From assembly GCA_016946835.1 (NCBI GenBank), contig JACVTC010000134.1, forward strand, positions 214,501 to 278,500: a stretch of DNA of 64,000 nt, written 5' to 3'. The stretch is from Neocallimastix lanati (nom. inval.). Lineage: Eukaryota > Neocallimastigomycota > Neocallimastigomycetes > Neocallimastigales > Neocallimastigaceae. Shown in pieces: positions 12,301 to 56,690 of this stretch. Each line of letters starts with the position of its first letter. Within the stretch, counting starts at the first letter, position 1. The position numbers were made by a program, and so were the translations under genes. The notes under the pieces are model-generated. The model was not told the origin of the DNA and ran no database searches. It worked only from the letters and a program-made list of their open reading frames with translations.

Positions 12301-14105
12301 TATTGTTTGTCAAAAAGGTAATAATTTTTTTTCTTTCCTATTTAATATAATATATTAAGTATTTATTTAATTATTAATTATCATAATAAAGTCATAAATT
12401 TTAAATGAATAGATAAATATATATTTATATATATCAATGAAAAAAAAAAGTTTTTATTTTATAATAATATTTAATTTTAATTTCTTTTTTAAATTTCAAC
12501 TTTAATTTTTTTCTTTTTAAATTTGTAATTTAAAGATAACTTTGGTCCTTTAATTTTAAGTGAATTTACTGGTGTCGCTGGTTCATTAAGTGATGCTTTA
12601 ATGATAAATCCATGGGATCAAACGGTAAATTAAATCTTAAAAATATTTATTAAAAAAATTTTTTTTTTAAAAAATAAAAAATAAAATAAAGTTTTTTTTT
12701 TTTTATATTGAATATAAAATATGTCATTAAATAAATTATAAACAATTTTATATATACCTTTTATTTTAATTTATATAAAAAAAATATTTTTTTTTAATAG
12801 GGTATTGCTAATGCCATTTATGAAGCATTAACTATGCCAAAGGAAGAACAAATTATCAAGCACAAGGTAATTAATTAATTTTTTTATATATTTTTTTAAA
12901 ATAATTTAAATGAAGAAAATTATTAACAGAAAAAAAAAAAAAATAAAATAAAAAAAAAAAAAAAAAAAAAAAGAAAAGAAAAATTAATAAATAGAAAAAA
13001 AATAAAATATAAATTAAATTTATATATAATTATTATTATTAATTTTTTTTTTAAATATATATATATATTTTTTTATTGGAATTATTATTTTAATTTTTTT
13101 TTATAATAAAAATGGATAATTAAAATACGATACCATACAATACAATACAATACAAAAAAAAAAAAAAAAAAAAAAAAAAAGCATTTATATAAAATTGTTT
13201 CTACTCAAACCGTTCAATCATGGGCAAAATCATTTGTTATTGAATTACTTAGAAATTCTTATTCTTATGATCCATCTGTTCCAATTCCTTTATTGGAAAG
13301 AAACACTATTAAGGAAAAGTATATTCATGCTAAGAAGAGATTAATCTTTTTCGATTATGATGGCACCTTAACTCCAATTGTTAAGACACCTTCTGCTGCG
13401 GTTCCATCCATTGAAATGTTAGCAGCCTTACGTACTTTAACCTATGATCCAAATAATGTAGTCTTTATTATTTCTGGTCGTGATCAAGCTTTCTTAGATA
13501 AGCATCTTGGTCATATTAGAAATTTGGGTATGAGTGCTGAACATGGATTCTTAATTAAATATCCAGGTGGTGTTTGGATCAACTGTGAAAGTGATACTGA
13601 TTTAACTTGGAGAAATGATGTAGAAAATATCTTCAATTTCTATACAGAACGTACTCAAGGTTCCTTTGTAGAAAAGAAGAAATGTGCCATTACATGGCAT
13701 TATCGTTTAGCCGATCCAGCTTATGGTGCCTTCCAAGCAAAAGAATGTCAAAATCATATTGAAAATTCTGTTTTATCAAAATATCCTATTGAAATTTTAC
13801 ATGGAAAGAAGTGTCTTGAAGTTCGTCCAATTACCGTTAATAAGGGTGAAATTGTAAGACAATTAATGAATATTCATCCAGATTGTGACTTCGTTTTATG
13901 TGCTGGTGATGATAGAACAGATGAAGATATGTTTAAGGCATTAGTTGAAAATGATATTGAAAAGGATAATATCTTTACAACCATTGTTGGAGGAGTCTCT
14001 AAAAAATCAATTGCTCATTGGAGAGTTTCTGAACCTAAGGATTTAATTGATGTTATGGAGGTTTTAGCTCAATGTACTGCTAATGATATTTCTAAGACTA
14101 ACTAA
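9323..14105 (+). CDS. Trehalose-6-phosphate synthase/phosphatase family protein (Tps2-type, 10 exons)
   Basis: Exons read by me: 9323-9375, 9647-10059, 10303-10440, 10612-10737, 11236-11288, 11432-11580, 11899-12317, 12536-12624, 12801-12866 and 13182-14105. They join in frame to 2430 nt (809 residues), and all introns are GT-AG. Residues 1 to about 500 form a GT20 trehalose-6-phosphate synthase fold with LIVVS, LWPLFHY (from residue 157), WFQDYH, HTPFP and LRDGMN blocks. Residues about 550-809 form a HAD trehalose-6-phosphate phosphatase: DYDGT (D560, D562), ISGR, SAEHG, VNKGE and GDDRTDED (745-751), all intact. The synthase half departs from the active consensus: SNRLP reads SHLLP, the RLDYxKG Arg is Ser (SLDKTKG), and the Glu after DGMN is Asp. 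By family knowledge this suggests a phosphatase with a non-catalytic synthase-like domain, as in yeast Tps2. The start is the only ATG giving the LIVVS block. Confidence 0.93.
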
Positions 14106-16869: not shown

Positions 16870-18115
16870 TCTTTACCCTCGCTGCTATGAAACATCTACT
16901 GACAACACAGGGTTGATTTTTATCCGTGGTATACACTCATGGACTAATGCTAAAATGAAGGAGTTTATTCATTGTAAATGCAAAAAATTCAATGATAATA
17001 TTTTGTCAGTAAAAAGAATTACTAAAATTCAATGAGAGCTTCTTCAGGATAAAAGTATACATTCCAAATTTTGACTACGAAAAATTTAAAGAAGTATTTG
17101 AAAAAGCACTATCAGGAGTTAAAATGTCATATCGTAGATGTTCCAAATGGAATCATAAGGTTTCCTTTCAGCATTTAAACCAAAATCTAATATCAAATAA
17201 CACATCCAAGAATACAAACTCAGTAAACCCTAGTTCAACTAATTTAGTATATGTTATAAATGGCAATCGTGAATTCAATTCTCCCAATATTCCTAATCTT
17301 AATTCTTAAAATCCAATTTCATATTCTAATACAGGATAGTTTTCTTTTTGTCTTAGTTGGAATACCAATAGATGGAATTTTGTGAAAAGAGATAGTATTG
17401 AGTACTTCAACACAATATTTAAACCATTATTTCTATGTTTTCAGGAAACAGGTAATAGTACCAATGAGGCTAGAAATCCATGTAAAGTAATACTTCCCAA
17501 CTATAAATATTTCCTGAAAAGAATGGATCCTACTATACCAGGTTGCAGAGGTTTATATCTTGGTTATCATGTCTCATGTCAAGCAGTACTTGAAGATAAT
17601 TCCTATACTTATCTTGTTTCTTTAACAACATATAGTCTCTGGAATTACTTTAAGTGTTCTGTTGGTAACGTCTATATTTCCACTAAGAAACAGTCGTTAC
17701 AAGTCCGATATGCATTTTCAGAAGTTTTCATATGGCTTCAGAATCACACTAATCATCCATCTATTCTTCTTGGAGACTTTAACATAAGTACCTCTGATTT
17801 ACAAGATAAATTATCCAATAGTAACCTTGATAACTGGTTTATTCCTCCGATTAATGGTTCACCTATTTCATGGAAAAGAGGTGGTTATTCATCAGATATT
17901 GATCATGCGTTAGTCAGTTCAAGTACGCTGGTTAAAATATCTAGTGCTTATTTTGTTGATTATCCTTCTGTATCTGATCATAAACCTCTCATGGTTTATT
18001 GCAAGAAAATTACCACAGATGAATCATTTTTGTTACCATAAAAATTTGATAAAAATTTGTTAGATGGGATAGGTATAAAAATAAGTTCAAAAGTTATAAA
18101 ATAAAAAAAAGATTT
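16870..18115 (+). pseudogene. Degenerate non-LTR retrotransposon, N-terminal domain plus APE endonuclease
   Basis: This relic matches the first third of the element at 19523-24846. An RRM-like domain (GLIFIRGIHSW, LSVKRITKF after one frameshift) is followed by a basic/Ser-Asn linker (17124-17309) and the endonuclease (17382-18041). The endonuclease keeps CFQETG with its catalytic Glu, LLGDFN, SDIDHA and SDHKPL. Unlike the larger copy it has Gln, not a stop, before the catalytic Glu. Homology fades around 18115, before any reverse transcriptase. Non-LTR copies are normally 5'-truncated, so loss of the 3' part implies a later deletion or rearrangement. Confidence 0.87.
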
Positions 18116-19780: not shown

Positions 19781-22700
19781 TTAAGATACAAAATTATGAT
19801 CTTCATTGGTTGCGCTAGCCCTGCTGGCCTGTCTTACTGTTTCTTCAGCATTGACGCTCTTGGTAGTAGTAGTACGATTCGATTTGAACCTATTGAACAA
19901 AGACCATTGCTGGCCAATAGCAATAGGTATAATCGATTGGAGAAGTGCCGCAGTAACCACTAAGAACGGAGTATCAGAATAAGCACCTGATTTCATCTGG
20001 CACTTAAATAGATCCTTCCATTCCCTTGTACTGTTATTAATACTTCGACCTCCAAGAAGGAAATTAAACACTTTTTCACACACACTAGAATCAATATACA
20101 CATTATTTTCAATACTATTACTAACATTACTAATAATACTATTACTAATATTATTATTACTATTATAACTATTACTATTATTACTATTACTATTATCATT
20201 ATTACTATTAACAATATCATTTGTTAGGTTGCCACGGTAAAAAGCATTATATAAAAATAAAATTTTATCATTAACTTTACTACGAGTATGATTGAAAAAG
20301 GGACAATCAATTAACCAATGACTTATCCATTGTTTATTACTTTTACAACAGGGACAAAAATTAGGACACATTTGGTCCACTATTTTTGCAGCTTTAGCAA
20401 TTCTAGCATCTAATCTATATCCGCTTCGTGCTCTCAATAGCCAATAGAAACCATATGAAAGATCAGGATAGTCATAACAAAGTTTTATAAATTTTGATGT
20501 TTCTTCGAATTTGTTTTTGTCATAAAACTCAGCTTTAATAGAATTGATTTTCATATCTCTTTTCCAATAAAAATCCTTGATTTTATTATCATTATTACCT
20601 CTTTTCTCTAGTTTACGTTTAAGAGTTCTACTTTCTTTTGTCCATGTATATTTTCTAGATTTTGGAATATTATTAACTAAATAGGAAATAATACAATTTG
20701 AATTTTTCCATTTATCAAAACATTTGACCTGAGACAAAGCACACTTAGCTGACAATGGAGGAATATGTAAATCTTTTGAAATAGAATATACATTAATAAA
20801 TGATTTGGCTTTTTGTATACCTGCAATCCATCTTAATCCTTTATTAATTAATTTCTGAGTATTATTTGTTCTCGTTTTATTCGAACCAAGTAAAGGTGCA
20901 AAGTAAGAGACTTTACTAAGTACATAAGAGTTAATTATAATCTTCTTAAATGGAATAGGAATTTTGGAATTTGAAAGAAATTTACTAACAGAAAAGAGAG
21001 CTTTAGTTACTTTAGAGTTAAGTAATTTAATAATAGGTTTCAACGATAAGCTTTTATCAAATGGTATACCTAAATAGGTATAACATTTAGTTATTGGAAT
21101 TGGTTGACCAGCAAGATAAAAAGTAGGATCTCTTTTATTTTGAAAAAGAGGTGTGTCTGGTCGAATCACCATCGTTGCACACTTATTAATTCCAAAATTC
21201 ATCATATTAAATTTAGCCCATTCATTTACCTTCTTAAGCATTTTTTTCAACTTAGTTCTTGACGGTGCGCATAGAACAATATCATCTGCAAAGAGTCCAC
21301 CACAACATCTAGATTCGCCTAAAGGAATTCCAAGTTCTGAAACATCATTAAAAATGTCATTAATAAATAGATTGAAAAGAATTGATGATAGTGGACAACC
21401 TTGTCTAACTCCTTTCATAATATTAAAAGATTCCGAATATTGATCATCAATTTTAACACTAGCTTTGGATGTCAAATATAGATTTTTTATAAATTGATAA
21501 CATTTACCTCTAATACCTAAAGCATCTAATTTATATAAAATATTACCTATTGGAACAGAATCATATGCCTTTTTTAAATCTAGAAAAGCTAGGTAAGTTT
21601 CTTTATTATCATTTTTACGCCTTTGACAAATTTCTCGAATTGAAATAAATAAACTAACACATTCTTCTTTAGTACGAAATCCAAATTGCTCTGGCCTAAT
21701 AAAATTATTTTTAAGTCCATATTCTGAAATTCTTTTGGAGACTATTTTCGAAATGAGTTTAATACCATTGTTAATCAGAGAGATACCTCGATAATTGTCA
21801 CAATCAGATATATCATCTCCTTTTTTAGGAATAGATATAATACTTGCTTCATTCCATGAGCTAGGTAATTCTCCATTCCAAATTCTTGAGTATATCTTCT
21901 GTAAACAATTTAAACTAGAAGAAGAATTATTTACTGAATTTTCGTCATCCGGAGGAATTAAAGCTTTATAAAATTCAATAGGAATTCCATCCGGGCCTGA
22001 AGCTTTAAAATTTGGAGTAGCCAAAATTGCTTCTCTAATTTCTTCTATACTGATGTCTTGATTTATATCCCATTCATTGTGTCTCGTATACCTAATTGTT
22101 CCATTGGAAAATTTATTATACCATTCGATTAATGCACTATTGATATCAGAATGGCTTGAAGCAAGTTTTTTATAGTGATTGTGCCATACTTCTAACTGTT
22201 CTTTAGTAGAAGTAGCTAGTTTACCATTTTTGTCCTTTAATGGAGAATTTGACATATTTTTAAATTTATCTACTTTTGCTGTTGTTTTAAGCCATTTCCA
22301 AGCTTTTTTAGGGTTATGAGATTTCATATATTCACATCCTGTATTAATCCAATGTTGGTATTCAGTTTTCCTATAAATATTACACATATGATGAATAATT
22401 TTGCACATTCTATTATATTTATCAATTAATTCTTCAAATCCATCTAAATTATGATAAGAACCTCTTCTTTTAATGGATTTATATAATTTCATTTTGAGTT
22501 TTTGCAAATTAAATATTTTCTGCGACATATGAAAAAAAGATTTTCGAACTTCTGAAATTGACGTGATATTAAGTTCCTTAGCAATATTGAATGAAGTTGA
22601 AATAAATTTCTTTGAAATATCATCAATACTAATATTAGGATCTGGAATCACTTCCTCTAATACACTAAAATAGTTGTTGTCAAAAATTGATTCTTTTTCA

Positions 22701-24184
22701 TTTATACATTTTAATCTATCCCATTTAACTGTCTTTTTAGGCAGAGAGAAAGAATTATCTGAATTAACTGATGAAAAACATTTACCTTTTATTAATAAAG
22801 GTTTATGATCCGAAATGGGGGGAAAGTCAATAAAAGTACCATATGAAAGTAAATCTAACATATGATCATTGACAATCGCATGATCTATATCAGATTCTCT
22901 ATTACCTCTACTCCATGAAATTGGGGAGCCCCATAAGGGAAGAATTTTCCAATTACTAAATTTAGAGAGCAAATTACTTAATTTCTCAGTAGGTAAATTA
23001 AAATCACCAACCAACATTGAAGGATGAGAAGAGTGACTATTTAACCAAGACAATATTTCAATTCTAGCAGCTCTAGCATGAAGGCTATGGCCACTATGAG
23101 GTACGTACACATTACCAATAGAACATTTAGTGAAATTCCAAAAATTATAAGTATACAAGGAAATAATATACTCATAAGTGTTGTTTTCAAGAGAGGCTTG
23201 ACAAGAATTATGAAACCCAATATAAAGACCTCTTTTACCGGGAATTTCATTATTAGCTTTTTTGAAGAAATGTTTGTAGTTTTTTAATGATACTCGACAT
23301 GGATATTTACTGCTAGAACCTGAACCATTTCCTGTTTCTTAAAAGCATAAGAAAAGTGGTTTGTACATTGAAATAAAGAATTCAACACTGTCTTTTTTAT
23401 CAAAGTTCCATCCATTAGTATTCCAACTGACACATAGAGAAAATTCTTTAACTGTATTATTATTAATATGAGTGTTATTAATATTATTGGAATTATTATA
23501 ATTGATTGAACTGAAATTTGAATTTGAATCTGAGCTTGAAACTGAATTTAAACATAAATTTGAAATTGAACTTGAACTTGTACTTGAACTTGAACTTGAA
23601 CTTGAACTTGAACTTGAACTTGAACTTGTACTTGAACTTGTACTTGAACTTGAACTTGAGCTTGTACTTGAACTTGTACTTGAACTTGAACTTGAGCTTG
23701 TACTTGAACTTGAACATGAATCTGTATTTGAACTTGAATTTGAATTTTGACTTGAATCTGCATTTGAATTTGAAGTAGTGAATAAGTTGATATTATAAGA
23801 TGAATTCACTTTTTCTGATAAGGCAAAATGTTTCCTTTTGAGTGAAGAAAAACTGTATTTATGATTCCTTTTGCTACAATTAATAACGTTAATTGAAGCA
23901 CGTTTGAAACTATTAACAATACAATCAGTAATAGATGTTAATTCTTCTTCATTACCTACTATTTTAATTTTAAAGAATGCATCATTAAAATTAGCAATAC
24001 GTTTAACTGATAAAACCTTATCATTTAATTCATTCAGAGTTTTCTTTAAATGTCTTCTCATTTTGATTTCTGGCCAAGATCGAAGTCCGCGGATAAAGAG
24101 TAGTTTCGTATTCTCCATTGGTATACCGTGGCACCTTGAACCTCTTAGAATGAAATTCTTATTTCTTATAAATTGGATTTCCAT
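19781..24184 (-). pseudogene. Non-LTR retrotransposon polyprotein (endonuclease-reverse transcriptase) with one in-frame stop
   Basis: Conceptually 1467 codons in one frame, interrupted only by TAA at 23341-23339 (codon 282). Residues about 25-110 look RRM-like (KLLFIRGL as RNP2-like, FFKIKIVG as RNP1-like). Residues about 165-225 are a Ser/Thr low-complexity tract. The APE endonuclease (about 248-465) has WNTNGW, then the stop exactly where the relic at 17382 has Gln in CFQETG, then LVGDFN, SDIDHA and SDHKPL. The reverse transcriptase (about 700-1000) has FLDLKKAYDSV, GVRQGCPLSS and FADDIVL (about 966). A Cys/His motif CPCCKSNKQWISHWLIDC (about 1281) precedes an Asn/Ser-rich stretch and the LLGGRSINN block. 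Except for the TAA it looks intact and recently active. It copies its RNA at a nicked target by target-primed reverse transcription. Confidence 0.92.
23560..23720. repeat. Hexanucleotide (CTTGAA)n coding repeat (Ser/Thr tract)
   Basis: About 25 CTTGAA units with GTACTT variants inside the retrotransposon coding region. On the coding strand it reads poly-Ser with scattered Thr. All six frames remain open, giving spurious Leu-Glu, Leu-Asn, Phe-Lys and Val-Gln frames. It is a length-variable linker between the RRM-like and endonuclease domains. Confidence 0.9.
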
Positions 24185-25614: not shown

Positions 25615-26365
25615 TTATAATTCATATCCTAATACATAATAGTTTACTTTTCTTCCTAAGTAATAAGTAGGATTAACTATTTGGAATCCTATATACATAA
25701 AGGAATGAAGAAGTAATTTTATATCTTCATTCTTTCTAATACAAATTACAATTTTTTCACAACCAAAGATTTCTTCTGCAAGCTCTAATAACGAAGTCAT
25801 ACTTTCTTGGAAATTCCAATTACATTCAGTTGGAAGTTCGATAAATAACGTAGTTTCCTTAATAAAGGCATAGAATACATTAACACCACGATTATCTAAT
25901 CGTTTAGATAATAATGAGACATACAATAAGCCCTGATCGTCCCTTTCTTGCACTAATACTTCGTTTTGAAATCTTCGACAGCCCTCCAGCAAGCCCGCTC
26001 GTAGTACATCATTCATATTAGAAGAGTCAGGAATACCACCCTATTATATTATAATATAAATTATAATAATAAATTTCATTTAATATTTCGCTGTATCCTA
26101 TTATTATTAAATATATATATTTTTATCATATATATTAATATTTACCGGTTTTAGTACCGCTAGTGTAATAATAATTGACAGTTTTACCCATTTTAGAGTA
26201 AATAGTGCATAAAGCAAGAGGGTCTTCATAATTTTCATAGTAAGGCTCCTCAACTTCTTCTAAGAAGGCCATTATTGATAAATCATTAATTGGATTATTA
26301 TTTTCACTACTTAAATTTATGTTTGGATTTATCATGTTGTCAAATTTTTCTTTCTTTTTTAACAT
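25615..26365 (-). CDS. Ornithine decarboxylase antizyme, expressed by +1 ribosomal frameshift
   Basis: Antizyme binds ornithine decarboxylase, targets it to the proteasome without ubiquitin and blocks polyamine uptake; its translation rises with polyamines. Exon 1 (26365-26146) starts at ATG and is joined over a 105-bp GT-AG intron to exon 2 (26040-25615). The zero frame ends at TGA (26029-26027) after 77 codons; a +1 shift at TCC gives 137 more, 214 in all, close to the 228 of human OAZ1. The second frame carries the family signature: LFIELP, a Trp, LLELAEEIFGCEKIVIC, LLLHSFMYIGFQIVNP. The mRNA at the junction reads TGG TAT TCC TGA C, matching antizyme frameshift sites elsewhere in fungi and animals. 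Neither frame alone would make an active antizyme. The polyamine role is established for the family; regulation here is inferred from the conserved site. Confidence 0.95.
26026..26038 (-). promoter_or_regulatory. +1 programmed ribosomal frameshift site UGG-UAU-UCC-UGA-C
   Basis: Minus-strand sequence TGGTATTCCTGAC; TGA (26029-26027) is the zero-frame stop and GAC (26028-26026) is the first +1 codon. The site lies two bases into exon 2, so it exists only as part of the spliced codon series beginning with the exon 1 terminal G. UCC-UGA is the canonical antizyme shift site. Confidence 0.93.
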
Positions 26366-51236: not shown

Positions 51237-51535
51237 TTAAAGATTCATTTTATGAATTAATTCAAGGAAATCATTACTTGCAGAGAACAAATCATTGTTT
51301 TTAATATAATTTTTCAAAAATGTATCATCTTGTAAATTATTGGCTACTGCAATATTGTTACTAGTTGTATCCATTATTCTGTCTTTCATATTCATTAAGT
51401 TTTTATCTTTTGGTGTTGATTAAATAAATTATATTATAAATTATAATAGAAGTATTAAACATTTGATTAGTTTTATCATTATTATATATAAACAAAGATT
51501 AAAATAATAAAAATAAGTACTATTTAAAATAACTC

Positions 51536-51566
<31 letters not shown>

Positions 51567-51573
51567 AAAAATT

Positions 51574-51634
<61 letters not shown>

Positions 51635-54600
51635 TTAAATAACAAATAAAAAATATATATAATTTACCTGTTTCATTATTTAAAAGACTTGGATCAATGA
51701 AATTGGTTGAAGAGGTTAAATTGGTAAGATTTTGTGAGGTCATTTGATTCATTGATGATGATATATTAATATTGTTTGTTTCTGTCTTTACTGTTTGTGT
51801 ATTCTTTGAGGAATAAATTGAAGAATAAATTGATTTAAGATTAGATGAAGTAGTATTAGCATTCATAGCATCAATACTTTCTAAATCCGATTCTTTAATC
51901 TCAATATTGGCTTTACGAACAATCCATTTAGCATAGGCATAAAGATAGGTAGCTAATGGTTGTACCTTGGATATTTTTAATAATTGAATATTATTTAAAA
52001 TGGCTTTCGTGGCAGTGCGTCTTTCTTCTACAGACCAATTATTAGATTTAACAATAAAGAGTTGAACACTAATACAAGTCATAATAGTTGTTGGGAGTTG
52101 AGCTAAAAAGAAGGAACATAATGGATGTGGTTCTGGAGTGATGGCCATCATTGATATAATAATATTTGTTAAATAAATTGCTGCAGAGGCACAAATATTT
52201 TTGGATTCAATTACGGTTGGGGTAATTGAGGTTGATGTTAATGAATAGACATGAAGAGCTAATTGAGCACGATAGTAAATCGCTGCAAGATATAATGGAA
52301 ACATTGTCCATACTAAATCTTTTGGAGATTTAGATAAAGCAGCGGTAACTGGTGAATTATTTTCTGTTTTGATTGTAGTTTCCAATATATTTGCTTCATT
52401 GGTTGTATCTATTTCAAGTTTTATATTATCTTTTAGTTTAATATTAGTTGAAGTTGAAGCAGTAGTTGTGGTTGGAATTGAAGTTGTTGTAGTTGTAGTT
52501 GTAGTTGTGGTTGTGGTTGTGACTGGAGTTGTGGTTGCGATTGGAGTTGCATCTATAGTTGCTTTTGCACTCATATTTGTAGCTGTGGTTGCAGTTGCGT
52601 CTACAGTGGATGATATGGATATAGTTGAATTAATTTCACTATTCACTAAATTCATCATATTCATTTCATTATCATCTCTATATAAATAAGGTGGATCGGA
52701 CCATTTTAAAAATTCTGGAATGGAATTTCTCCAATCTAGTAATTTTTTTTGATGAATAAGAACAAATTTTTCTTTTTTTAATGGATCTGTTTCTTGGGAG
52801 GCCCGTCTTTTACCGGCATTACTCCAACGTGATATTTCTCCAACAATTTCAAAAAGTTCCAGTCTTACAGATAACGCTTGAACGGTTGCCTTTTCTATCT
52901 TAGTCGTTTCATTTGAATCGATTGTGGGTGGTGGAATATCCCAATCACTATCATCTATAATCATTGGACGACCTGTCATTAAAGCACTTTGTCTATCTAA
53001 AATATATAAAAGAACCCATGCTCTTCTAGTTTCATTTTTTTCCTCTAGAGTATGATCTTTACCTCTCAACATGAGATCACGATGTAATCCCAATTCATGG
53101 GCCATTCTTACGGCTGTACCGGTATAAGTATAGGTGGAATATCCCATTTCAGAACGTGGATTACTCATTGCAAGGGTTGAAAGAATAATAAGAGCTTGAA
53201 CTGTAGGTAAACTTGGAATATCAAATACTTTTTGTAATTGATTTCTTGACCAATCAAAAGCTAGTTGACTAATATCCGAAGGTAAGTCTTTTGGTAATTC
53301 TTCCTTAGGGATATATTTTCCAACGACAGCAAGAATACAATGTAGTAATAACTGATAACCTGGAGCATCAGGATCATTATCTAAAAGAGAAGTAAATGCC
53401 TGTCGATTAAATAGTGGTATAATAGGATGAAGATTATCAAAGAAAAGATCAAGAACCTTTCTAAAGTTTTCTTTGGTAGTAATTGGAGTAACATCTTCTA
53501 CTCTAGAATGAATACTATCTTCTTTATTCGATTCTCCTTCTTTACGATTAGAAACTGAAGCAAGAATATTTTTTATATCACCAATAGAAAAAGTGGTTGC
53601 TTTCTTATCAGAGGAAAGATCACTAATTAAATTAGAGGCAAGACCTACACAGGATGAATTACCAAAATAGATATAACCTCCAGAAGATTTCATATCAATA
53701 AAGGCTACTCCTAGATCTCCCTTATATACTTTTTCATCTGTTTTCTTTTCTTCAATTCCATTTTTAGGAAGGAGTGAAGATTTTTCGTTTACTATGGCAT
53801 TATTATCTACCATACTTGAGGCCATTGAAAATGGATAATTTTGCAATAATTCAGGATTAATATTATTAAGATTATACATTAATATATTTTCATTTAAGCC
53901 TTGTCGATTTAATGAACTTAATGGATTTAATGGATTTAATGAATTTAAGGAATTTAATAGTTTACTACGATATAAATTATTAATATTTAAGGTATTTAAA
54001 CTATTTGCATTATTTATTGTATTCAAAAAGCCTAAACTAACATTTGTATTTTCATTTTTATCAGAGATAAACAACGAACTATGATCACTTGGAATGGTTA
54101 AACCATTTTGACTAATTATTGGTGAGGTTCTGGTAGATACAAGAGAACTTGAATTTAATTTAGCGTTTAAAGAAGCTGATTTCGATGAAAGTGTATTTAT
54201 ATTTACATTATCAGTATCATCGTCTGTTGATGAATTGACTGAATTTAAGTTATTTAATTGAAAATTATTTATTCTATTATTCATTAAAATATTATCTATT
54301 CCATTAGCGGTAGATGGAATATGTGAAGAATTCATATTATTATTATTAAGTGTTGTTGCATTGGATGGGATTATGGAGTTAGGAATATTAAAAGATCCTA
54401 AATTAGAATTGAGTGGTGTTGCTGTTGCGGTTGCTGTACTTACAAAATTGTTATTATTTAGGGTTGAAGCAGCTTCACCACCTGTATTTACATTTGAGGA
54501 TTTAGAATTGAGAAGTAATTGATTATATAATGAATTATTGGTTAAAAGTTCTTCATTACCAGTTGTATTTTTAGTTAATTGTTTGAAAGAATTTTGAATT

Positions 54601-56690
54601 AATTCCTGTAATTTTAATTTCTGTTCTGAACTTTCATTTAATGAATTTTTTCTAGACTTATCGATTTCCATTTTATTGTTTGCATTTAACAAGGGATAGT
54701 TTGAATTTTTAAGAAGATCTATACCAATATTATTTGGAGATTTATTAGCAATGGCAGATTGATTTAATAGGGATGTTGGTGGTAATATGGGTGCTTGTGA
54801 AGAAACTTTAATAAAAGGTAAATTACTAATAGAAGTATTTGAAGTATTAGAATTAGTATTTGTATTAACATTAGTAGCCATTTCTTTTTCTTTTCTAGAA
54901 CTGTTTAATAAACTTTTATATAAAGTTGAAGTTAGTGCAGAGGTAGAGGATGGTATATTTGAAGAATTATTACTAGACCACGAGCTTGGTATTGTAATTG
55001 AGTTATTTGAGGTCATATAAGGTATTTCACTTTTTTCACTTGCTCCAATGGCTTTAATTTTCTTACTTAATAGTTCCTCCTCTATCTTCTTATTTATAGA
55101 ATTCAAAGAAGATATTTTATTATTTGCTATATTTGTAGTTGAAGTATTACTATTTATTAAACCTATCCTATTTTCTTGATTGAATGGAAGTTGTTGTTCT
55201 TTCAAGAGTGAAGAAGCTAGTTTTTTATTAGCAAGATTACTTCGTTTATTTGGTTTAGCTTTTCTTTTATTATTTTTTAATGATAACGCTGGAGAAAGTG
55301 GTAGTGAAGCTTCTAAAAGGGATTTAGGACTTGGATTCATTGTAGATAAGGCTGATGGAAATGTTGAATGAGTGGTATCAGTTATATCAGTTTTTGGTAA
55401 CTCCGAGTTTGTAGCATTTAATTTTAATGAATTTAAGGTGTTTGAATTTGTTACAATATTTTTTGTTGCTAATGCAGATAAATTATTTTTCAATTTATCA
55501 TTATTTTGTAATGCAGCTAAAGCTAAAAGATTAACTTGATTTTTTGAATTAAGAAGATCAATAGCACCATTATTATTCAACGAAGCTTGTGAAGCTAATG
55601 CTAATAATTGAGAGGCATTGGGAGAAGAAATATTTTGTTTCAACTGTTGTTGAACGAGAGCACTCAATGTGGAGGTGGATATAGGATTAGTATCTGAAGT
55701 ATGTTTATCAGGGTTGTTTTTAACTGAAGATATTTGTTGTTGATTTAAAAGTAAAGTATTTAGTAGAGATTGATTTAAGATTGTTGAGATATTTGAAGCT
55801 GAATTATCTGATTCTTGACCATTATTACTTAATGATGACGCAGATGAAGAAGCGCTGGCTTGAAGAGCATTTAAAAGACTATTTGTTCGACTGGAAGCTA
55901 ATGAACTTGGAAAAGATGCACTTGAGGCAGCAGTAGCAGCTGCAACAGCTGCTAAATTTGTATTTGTATTTAATAATGATGATGCTGCCTTGGCTGAAGT
56001 TGTATTTTGTAATAGGGTAGAGGAAGGATTAGTTAATGAATTATGATTTTGTAATAATGACGCCGCTTTCTGTGATAATATTGAAACAGAAGTGCTTACT
56101 GCAGGAGTTGCTGAAGGAAGCGTCACCATTTCCTTTTTTATAGGAGCTATTGGATTAATATTAGTTGAATTTGTTGAAGTTGATGTTGGTTTTGAATTTG
56201 CTTTTGATTTAGTATTTTCTGTAACGGTTTTGGTTAATAATTCTAAATTAGAATCACTAAGATTTTGTTTGGTAGTTAATGCTAAAAGTAATTCTTCAAC
56301 TTTATGTAATCTTTCTTTTAAATTTACACGTGTAGAACCTTTTCTAGGTCCACGTTTTAATGGCTGCGCAAAACAACATTCTGACTCCGTCTTATGCTGT
56401 ATACACGGTGTACAAGGCGATTTACCATCACATTTAATTCTTTTCCTTCTACATGCGTTACAAGCTTGTGCCGTTCTTTTTCTTTTTACGTTTGGATAAG
56501 TTTTATATTTATTATTTGGATTTGTAGAATCATTTGCTGATGCTATTGTTGAAGATCCAGTTGCAGAAGTAATAGGTATTAATGGTAGTGAAGTAATTGG
56601 AATTTGAATATTGGGAAGAGGAGCAACAGGTGTTATTGGAGGAACCGAGGATTTATTTGAATTATTTCTATAAGGAAAATTGTAACCCAT
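51237..56690 (-). CDS. Zn2Cys6 (Gal4-type) fungal transcription factor, 1730 residues
   Basis: Exon 1 (56690-51668) and exon 2 (51406-51237) join over a 261-bp GT-AG intron, in frame (5193 nt). Residues 77-105 form the binuclear zinc cluster Cys-x2-Cys-x6-Cys-x5-Cys-x2-Cys-x8-Cys (C77, C80, C87, C93, C96, C105) with the basic RRKRIKC loop. A leucine-rich stretch (LKERLHKVEELLLAL) follows as a likely dimer helix. Residues about 140-1000 are Asn/Ser/Thr/Leu low complexity. Residues about 1080-1330 match the fungal-specific transcription factor domain (FFDNLHPIIPLF, GTAVRMAHELGLHRD, RRAWVLLYILDRQSALMTGRP, DIPPP). A Thr run (about 52480-52520) separates it from the C-terminal part. It should bind DNA with CGG half-sites in the nucleus; target genes are unknown. 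The size is about twice that of typical members because of the spacer. Confidence 0.95.

Follow-up and report, generated by a model that had tools for sequence, protein, structure and literature searches.

How is the antizyme encoded at positions 25,615 to 26,365 of a 64,000-nt stretch of the Neocallimastix lanati genome (contig JACVTC010000134.1; the whole stretch is referred to here as the window) brought into its reading frame: by translation from the start codon of the deposited protein model, or by a +1 ribosomal frameshift at the end of a short first open reading frame (ORF1)? The gene consists of two exons on the minus strand (26365-25615), and the coordinates of its parts are collected in Table 1. 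As the first-pass annotation of this DNA had proposed, spliced ORF1 comprises 77 codons and ends with GGG TGG TAT TCC TGA C in phase, and dropping one base after TCC yields a 214-aa product with zero internal stops, most of which is encoded by the +1 frame (ORF2). This gene is very probably a functional ornithine decarboxylase (ODC) antizyme gene with a +1 shift on UCC, a degree of confidence that does not extend to the stimulation by the nascent peptide discussed below.

The claim of a complete antizyme gene with a +1 shift site is borne out by the Pfam family PF02100 (ODC_AZ), which matches the +1 frame at 3e-14 and scores 53.3 bits there, the curated cut-off being 24.2. A PDB sequence search with E up to 1 returned four matches, all four of which are antizymes (4zgy, 4zgz, 5bwa and 1zo0). 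An AlphaFold model built from a 12-row alignment has a mean predicted local distance difference test score (pLDDT) of 86.9, and its top three Foldseek matches are the antizyme complexes 4zgy_B, 5bwa_B and 4zgz_D (E of 7e-07 to 5.8e-05, root-mean-square deviation of 2.3–7.8 Å, TMq of 0.59–0.62), the rows below these three being nearly all acetyltransferases. P0001, a deposited hypothetical protein of Neocallimastix lanati, contains the 133-aa +1-frame query in full and without any difference. Searches of the Neocallimastix lanati assembly (199 Mb, 762 contigs) located a second ODC_AZ match, the paralogue L001 (G000:C7:422265-425480), and at least one locus of the ODC family (Orn_Arg_deC_N, 1.9e-81), the latter being an assignment at the family level. 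Both paralogues contain two overlapping open reading frames in a +1 relation at the stop codon. Antizymes have been identified in Neocallimastigomycota (PMC4505036), and UCC_UGA is the shift site of most known antizymes (PMC5009743); therefore, the window gene belongs to a known kind.

The intron lies directly upstream of the shift context, which is completed by splicing, with codon -4, GGG, being assembled across the junction (G|GG). The position of the shift site given by the first-pass annotation, two bases into exon 2, holds for TGG but not for the shift codon TCC, which lies eight bases in. Similarly, an in-frame TAA does end frame 0 when the intron is retained, although it is found at intron bases 9-11 (26137-26135) rather than six bases in. 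The suggestion that splicing and polyamine-sensed recoding both gate the product was overstated, as coding-region introns commonly make a product splicing-dependent, which is not in itself a special regulatory gate, and polyamine dependence is what the family would lead one to expect. The expectation that gene callers would split the gene in two is not supported, with P0001 being a single protein of 172 aa from an out-of-frame ATG. The GC contents are 28% and 32% for the exons, 9.5% for the intron and 10% and 15% for the flanks. Like human AZ1, the message has UGG two codons ahead of its shift codon.

The deposited model P0001 starts at the out-of-frame ATG of exon 1 and thereby bypasses the shift. 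Models starting with MKIM, which in the window corresponds to exon 1 read in +1 from the ATG at 26238-26236, comprise P0001, P0003 from Orpinomyces (genus taken from the JGI code Orpsp1), P0005 from Piromyces sp. E2 and P0009 from Piromyces finnis. As these starts would yield an antizyme without any shift, the frame under selection was tested by comparing the N-terminal residues that the window gene has in the +1 frame with those of nine relatives (P0002-P0009 and P0011) over a 35-codon overlap; from the 12 database matches, P0001 was left out as the gene itself, and P0010 and P0012 because they do not reach this region. Fourteen of the 16 distinct +1 replacements are reachable by a single change that is silent in frame 0, compared with 59 of 202 possible single-step replacements (p = 2e-6), a value from an equal-rate null that is generous to the frameshift, because transitions are commoner and are more often silent. 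When transitions alone are considered, all 12 observed replacements are silent, whereas only 33 of the 65 possible ones would be (p of about 3e-4, calculated by arithmetic). At residue 9 of the +1 frame, for example, Leu, Pro or His is found, and the simplest codons for these place GCT, GCC and GCA in frame 0, which always encode alanine. The two paralogues follow the same pattern: each of their four differences in this overlap leaves the frame-0 residue unchanged but is missense in +1.

The reading in which the deposited model is right, with translation from the +1-frame ATG producing a 172-aa antizyme and no frameshift, draws on the facts that the +1 frame is open from this ATG through the junction, that an A is present at -3 and that eight of the ten junction-covering database proteins start here, with P0006 and P0011 beginning three codons later. 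In simulated synonymous recodings of ORF1, with codon usage taken from 669 codons, the +1 frame was nevertheless open from that point in 24% of cases, and in 16% with that ATG present; the openness of the overlap needs no selection, because 24% of synonymous recodings retain it. Moreover, the deposited start is preceded in the message by four further ATGs, three in frame 0 and one in +1. Because 14 of the 16 replacements are silent in frame 0 and the open overlap is unremarkable, it is very probably frame 0 that is translated in ORF1, and the deposited starts are very probably wrong, which makes a shift-free antizyme from this ATG very unlikely. Several antizyme models deposited for gut fungi very probably start out of frame and lack the regulatory 5' portion of the gene.

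The second antizyme gene, L001, has a first exon of 220 nt, shares the donor position and contains a different intron of 173 nt, of which the first ten bases (GTAAATATTA) are shared with the window intron; its product has 215 aa. Exon 2 of L001 opens with GGTGGTATTCCTGACTC, and the first fifteen bases of exon 2, GGTGGTATTCCTGAC, are common to both genes, as is the entire TGG TAT TCC TGA C. Between the paralogues, ORF1 codons 38-77 contain four synonymous and zero nonsynonymous differences, whereas 27 of the 137 post-shift residues differ (Fisher p = 8e-4, with shared ancestry not fully corrected); three residues differ in codons 1-37. Among the database proteins, GGIPDS is present in the +1 frame at the junction in all ten that cover it (of 12 matches), and the next columns vary. 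A pseudogene or an assembly error could mimic a shift, and the frame break is what such a reading has in its support. The same break is present in the paralogue, GGIPDS is kept in the relatives and purifying selection is observed on both sides of the shift, and this explanation is accordingly given a practically negligible probability. As a separate observation, P0002, on a contig of 984 nt, resembles the window copy in its 5' part and the second copy in its 3' part, and is either a chimeric assembly or a real recombinant.

Several points weigh against the frameshift on UCC as the source of the antizyme. The counting of distinct replacements leaves shared ancestry partly uncorrected, and the frame-0 residues of the relatives are deduced from +1-frame proteins, except for those of P0013 and P0014. 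The nucleotide identity between the paralogues is 95.6% in exon 1 and 83.9% in exon 2, with synonymous divergences (dS) of 0.20 and 0.46, respectively. The higher similarity of exon 1 could be owing to gene conversion or to nucleotide-level constraint, and a possible homogenization of exon 1 may weaken the paralogue test taken alone, although not the test across relatives. No signal of a 3' RNA stimulator was detected when the 116 nt past the stop were folded for nested structures only (z = 0.31 for the window gene and -0.26 for the paralogue). A 3' RNA stimulator is present in many, but not all, antizymes. Codons -8 to -5, for which a glycine/proline pattern is tabulated in many antizymes (PMC5009743, Table 2) that is frequent rather than universal, likewise do not match it here and encode G, T, K and T. 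Finally, in both paralogues, splicing of the same donor (26145 in the window gene) to an acceptor lying 43 nt inside exon 2 would join ORF1 to ORF2 without any shift, so that alternative splicing rather than recoding might connect the frames. On paper, however, shift-free GT/AG pairs are common, with 21 of 60 in the window gene and 16 of 45 in the second copy (pairs less than 40 nt apart being counted as misses), and the product of the +43 acceptor would lose GWYS together with the first post-shift residues DSSNMNDVLR. The GGIPDS in ten of ten junction-covering proteins corresponds to use of the proximal acceptor, and the ORF1 of one relative (P0014, on a 965-nt contig) ends with WYS, as the spliced message does. 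Another relative, P0013, runs past the donor (TGKYYFIA), much like the unspliced second copy, and is therefore genomic or unspliced, with the donor position being the same. Six matches (P0002, P0004, P0006, P0007, P0008 and P0011) lie on contigs no longer than 0.9–1.3 kb with the junction closed and are taken for transcripts; intronless genes would look alike. The joining of the frames by the +43 acceptor is thus considered to be extremely unlikely.

Besides the frame in which it is read, the end of ORF1 is distinguished by its conservation. The frame-0 peptide ENYEDPLALCTIYSKMGKTVNYYYTSGTKTGWYS (codons 44-77) is compatible with the nine relatives apart from two positions, codon 60 being Ala or Val in two of them and codon 62 being Phe, Leu, Pro or Ser in three, with codons 44-46 not covered in P0006 and P0011; compatibility falls short of demonstrated identity, as first-position codon changes can hide in +1-frame proteins. 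The direct frame-0 view is provided by P0013, which is identical at 36 of 37 residues over codons 38-74, and by P0014, which is identical at 32 of the last 37. The variable columns of the ORF1 end number at least two of 34, to which P0014 adds codons 44 and 48, compared with 86 of 140 post-shift alignment columns (Fisher p = 1e-9, using the lower bound of two of 34). Following the shift, the residue types per column are 1, 1, 4, 4, a gapped column and 2, so that conservation falls two residues past the shift. Third-position changes are found at 12 codons upstream of codon 74 and at none of the last four codons (ten proteins), an absence that is suggestive only, as the positions are few and one of them is Trp. 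Peptide-level conservation accompanied by synonymous change is thus present 5' of the shift site. On the tentative reading set out below, the intron would sit close to where a peptide module (exon 1) meets a nucleotide-level module around the shift site (the start of exon 2).

With less confidence than is attached to the frameshift itself, we suggest, by likeness to a known fungal case, that the C-terminal peptide of ORF1 aids frameshifting from inside the ribosome exit tunnel. The extended form of this proposal is tentative: a nascent peptide specific to the class Neocallimastigomycetes, with some 34 residues and thus able to fill much of the exit tunnel, may be what chiefly stimulates antizyme frameshifting and perhaps also what senses polyamines, replacing a 3' RNA structure. 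A comparably possible alternative, which we would likewise put at somewhat short of even, is that selection preserves the ORF1 end for a role in the completed antizyme protein, such as localization or partner binding, since the peptide is part of the mature product and the nuclear signals of antizyme 1 are partly encoded by ORF1 (PMC5009743). Conservation that reaches the shift codon and falls two residues further on speaks against a role in the finished protein, and is as expected of a stimulatory peptide, because such an element would act with the ribosome on the shift site. When the ORF2 alignment was used as a search profile, the further matches were P0015 (a 62-aa fragment from Anaeromyces robustus), P0016 (from Calcarisporiella thermophila) and P0017, in none of which was an ORF1 region seen by eye, so that comparison of the ORF1 peptide is confined to the class. 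A scan of viral contigs for relatives gave 11 pattern matches and zero relatives.

In the proposed mechanism, intron removal would allow ribosomes to translate the 77 codons up to UCC UGA C, where some would terminate at UGA and a fraction would slip +1 on UCC to produce the 214-aa antizyme, which would bind ODC. The conserved C-terminal peptide of ORF1 may help this slip from inside the exit tunnel, a step held with lower confidence. Polyamines would increase the proportion of ribosomes that slip, thereby completing a negative feedback circuit. The gene structure, the domain, the shift site with its conservation and the selection on frame 0 of ORF1 are shown by the sequences; we infer the frameshift itself, the binding of ODC and the polyamine dependence, the last of these by analogy with the family. 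Since the sole intron precedes the ORF1 stop, this stop should escape exon-junction-dependent decay, an argument that would fit many genes. The stop sits in the last exon, and matches to the Mago and UPF1 families are present in the genome; the UPF1 zinc-binding region is found on two contigs with near-equal scores (L007-L010; G000:C12 and C79), representing either a duplicated gene or unmerged haplotypes.

The remaining features of the window are listed at the foot of Table 1; among them, an element resembling a long interspersed nuclear element (LINE; 19781-24184) lies downstream of the antizyme gene.

Table 1. Features of the antizyme gene and of the remainder of the window (positions are those of the window).
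Feature	Position	Strand	Details
Exon 1: ATG to splice donor; ORF1 codons 1-73 and first base of codon 74	26146..26365	-	220 nt; exon 1 of paralogue L001 also 220 nt; ORF1 of relatives, P0013 and P0014
Out-of-frame (+1) ATG, start of deposited model P0001	26236..26238	-	Contradicted as the selected frame by the silent-replacement test
Near-invariant C-terminal peptide of ORF1, portion in exon 1 (codons 44-73 plus one base of codon 74); candidate nascent-peptide stimulator	26146..26236	-	Continues in exon 2, 26040-26030, to codon 77
Intron, GT-AG (GTAAAT...AATAG), splitting codon 74 after its first base	26041..26145	-	105 nt; junction in deposited model P0001 consistent
Exon 2: shift site and +1-frame ORF2, terminal TAA	25615..26040	-	426 nt
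Shift site with 5' context, TGG TAT TCC TGA C	26026..26038	-	TCC 26032-26030, TGA 26029-26027; paralogue identical
+1 frame: GAC onward, antizyme domain	25615..26028	-	137 codons and stop; domain, PDB and fold matches
LINE-like element	19781-24184	-	Reverse transcriptase (6.4e-38) and endonuclease (8.5e-06) domains at 19781-23158; serine-rich ORF at 23339-24184
Second endonuclease-like ORF	17382-18041	+	Resembles the 19781-24184 element by eye; opposite strand
Trehalose-phosphatase domain	13293-14105	+	5.2e-73
1718-aa ORF: Zn(2)-Cys(6) cluster, fungal transcription factor domain, long Asn/Ser-rich stretches	51534-56690	-	Domain scan

Antizyme frameshifting is a standard example of a metabolite-controlled recoding circuit, and the window gene can be placed among the systems already described. 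Neither the ORF1 peptide nor the intron nor the duplicate was found described in the open-licence literature searched (including PMC4505036, PMC5009743 and PMC2375905), although an earlier description elsewhere is possible. With the antizymes of the UCC_UGA type (PMC5009743), the window gene shares the domain, the two overlapping open reading frames and UCC_UGA itself; it differs from them in having neither a detected 3' structure nor the tabulated glycine/proline pattern (codons -8 to -5), and in having a long conserved ORF1 end and one intron immediately ahead of the shift context, where introns lie in other antizymes not having been found in the literature searched. The antizyme of Saccharomyces cerevisiae (GCG_UGA_C; PMC5009743) has in common with it a +1 shift at a UGA_C stop in a fungal antizyme, whereas inhibitory signals and a late nascent peptide are described there and the shift codon differs. 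The Neocallimastigomycota antizymes of PMC4505036 come from the same phylum and very probably belong to the same family. The closest comparison for the ORF1 end is the Agaricomycete antizyme, in which an 11-residue nascent-peptide stimulator at codons -15 to -5 precedes UUU_UGA and was recognized by peptide conservation with synonymous change beside the shift site (PMC4505036). In that system, codon -4 is GGG, and its change to GAG had no effect, while changes to GAA or GCG cut shifting by 40–50% (PMC4505036). The GGG at codon -4 and the peptide-level conservation pattern are thus common to both, whereas the shift site is UUU_UGA there and UCC_UGA here, the conserved element spans 11 residues there and 34 codons here, where its effect is proposed from the pattern, and a putative pair of 3' stem-loops is present there, with none detected here. 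The window gene may therefore work like the Agaricomycete set without being a member of it, its shift site being TCC_TGA and the likeness considered here being that of the conservation pattern. In the literature consulted, nascent-peptide stimulation of antizyme frameshifting has been described for one fungal group (PMC4505036), which PMC5009743 calls 'so far the only evidence'; if the proposal made here is true, the gut-fungus antizyme would provide a second, longer case, pointing to polyamine sensing in the exit tunnel as a more general phenomenon.
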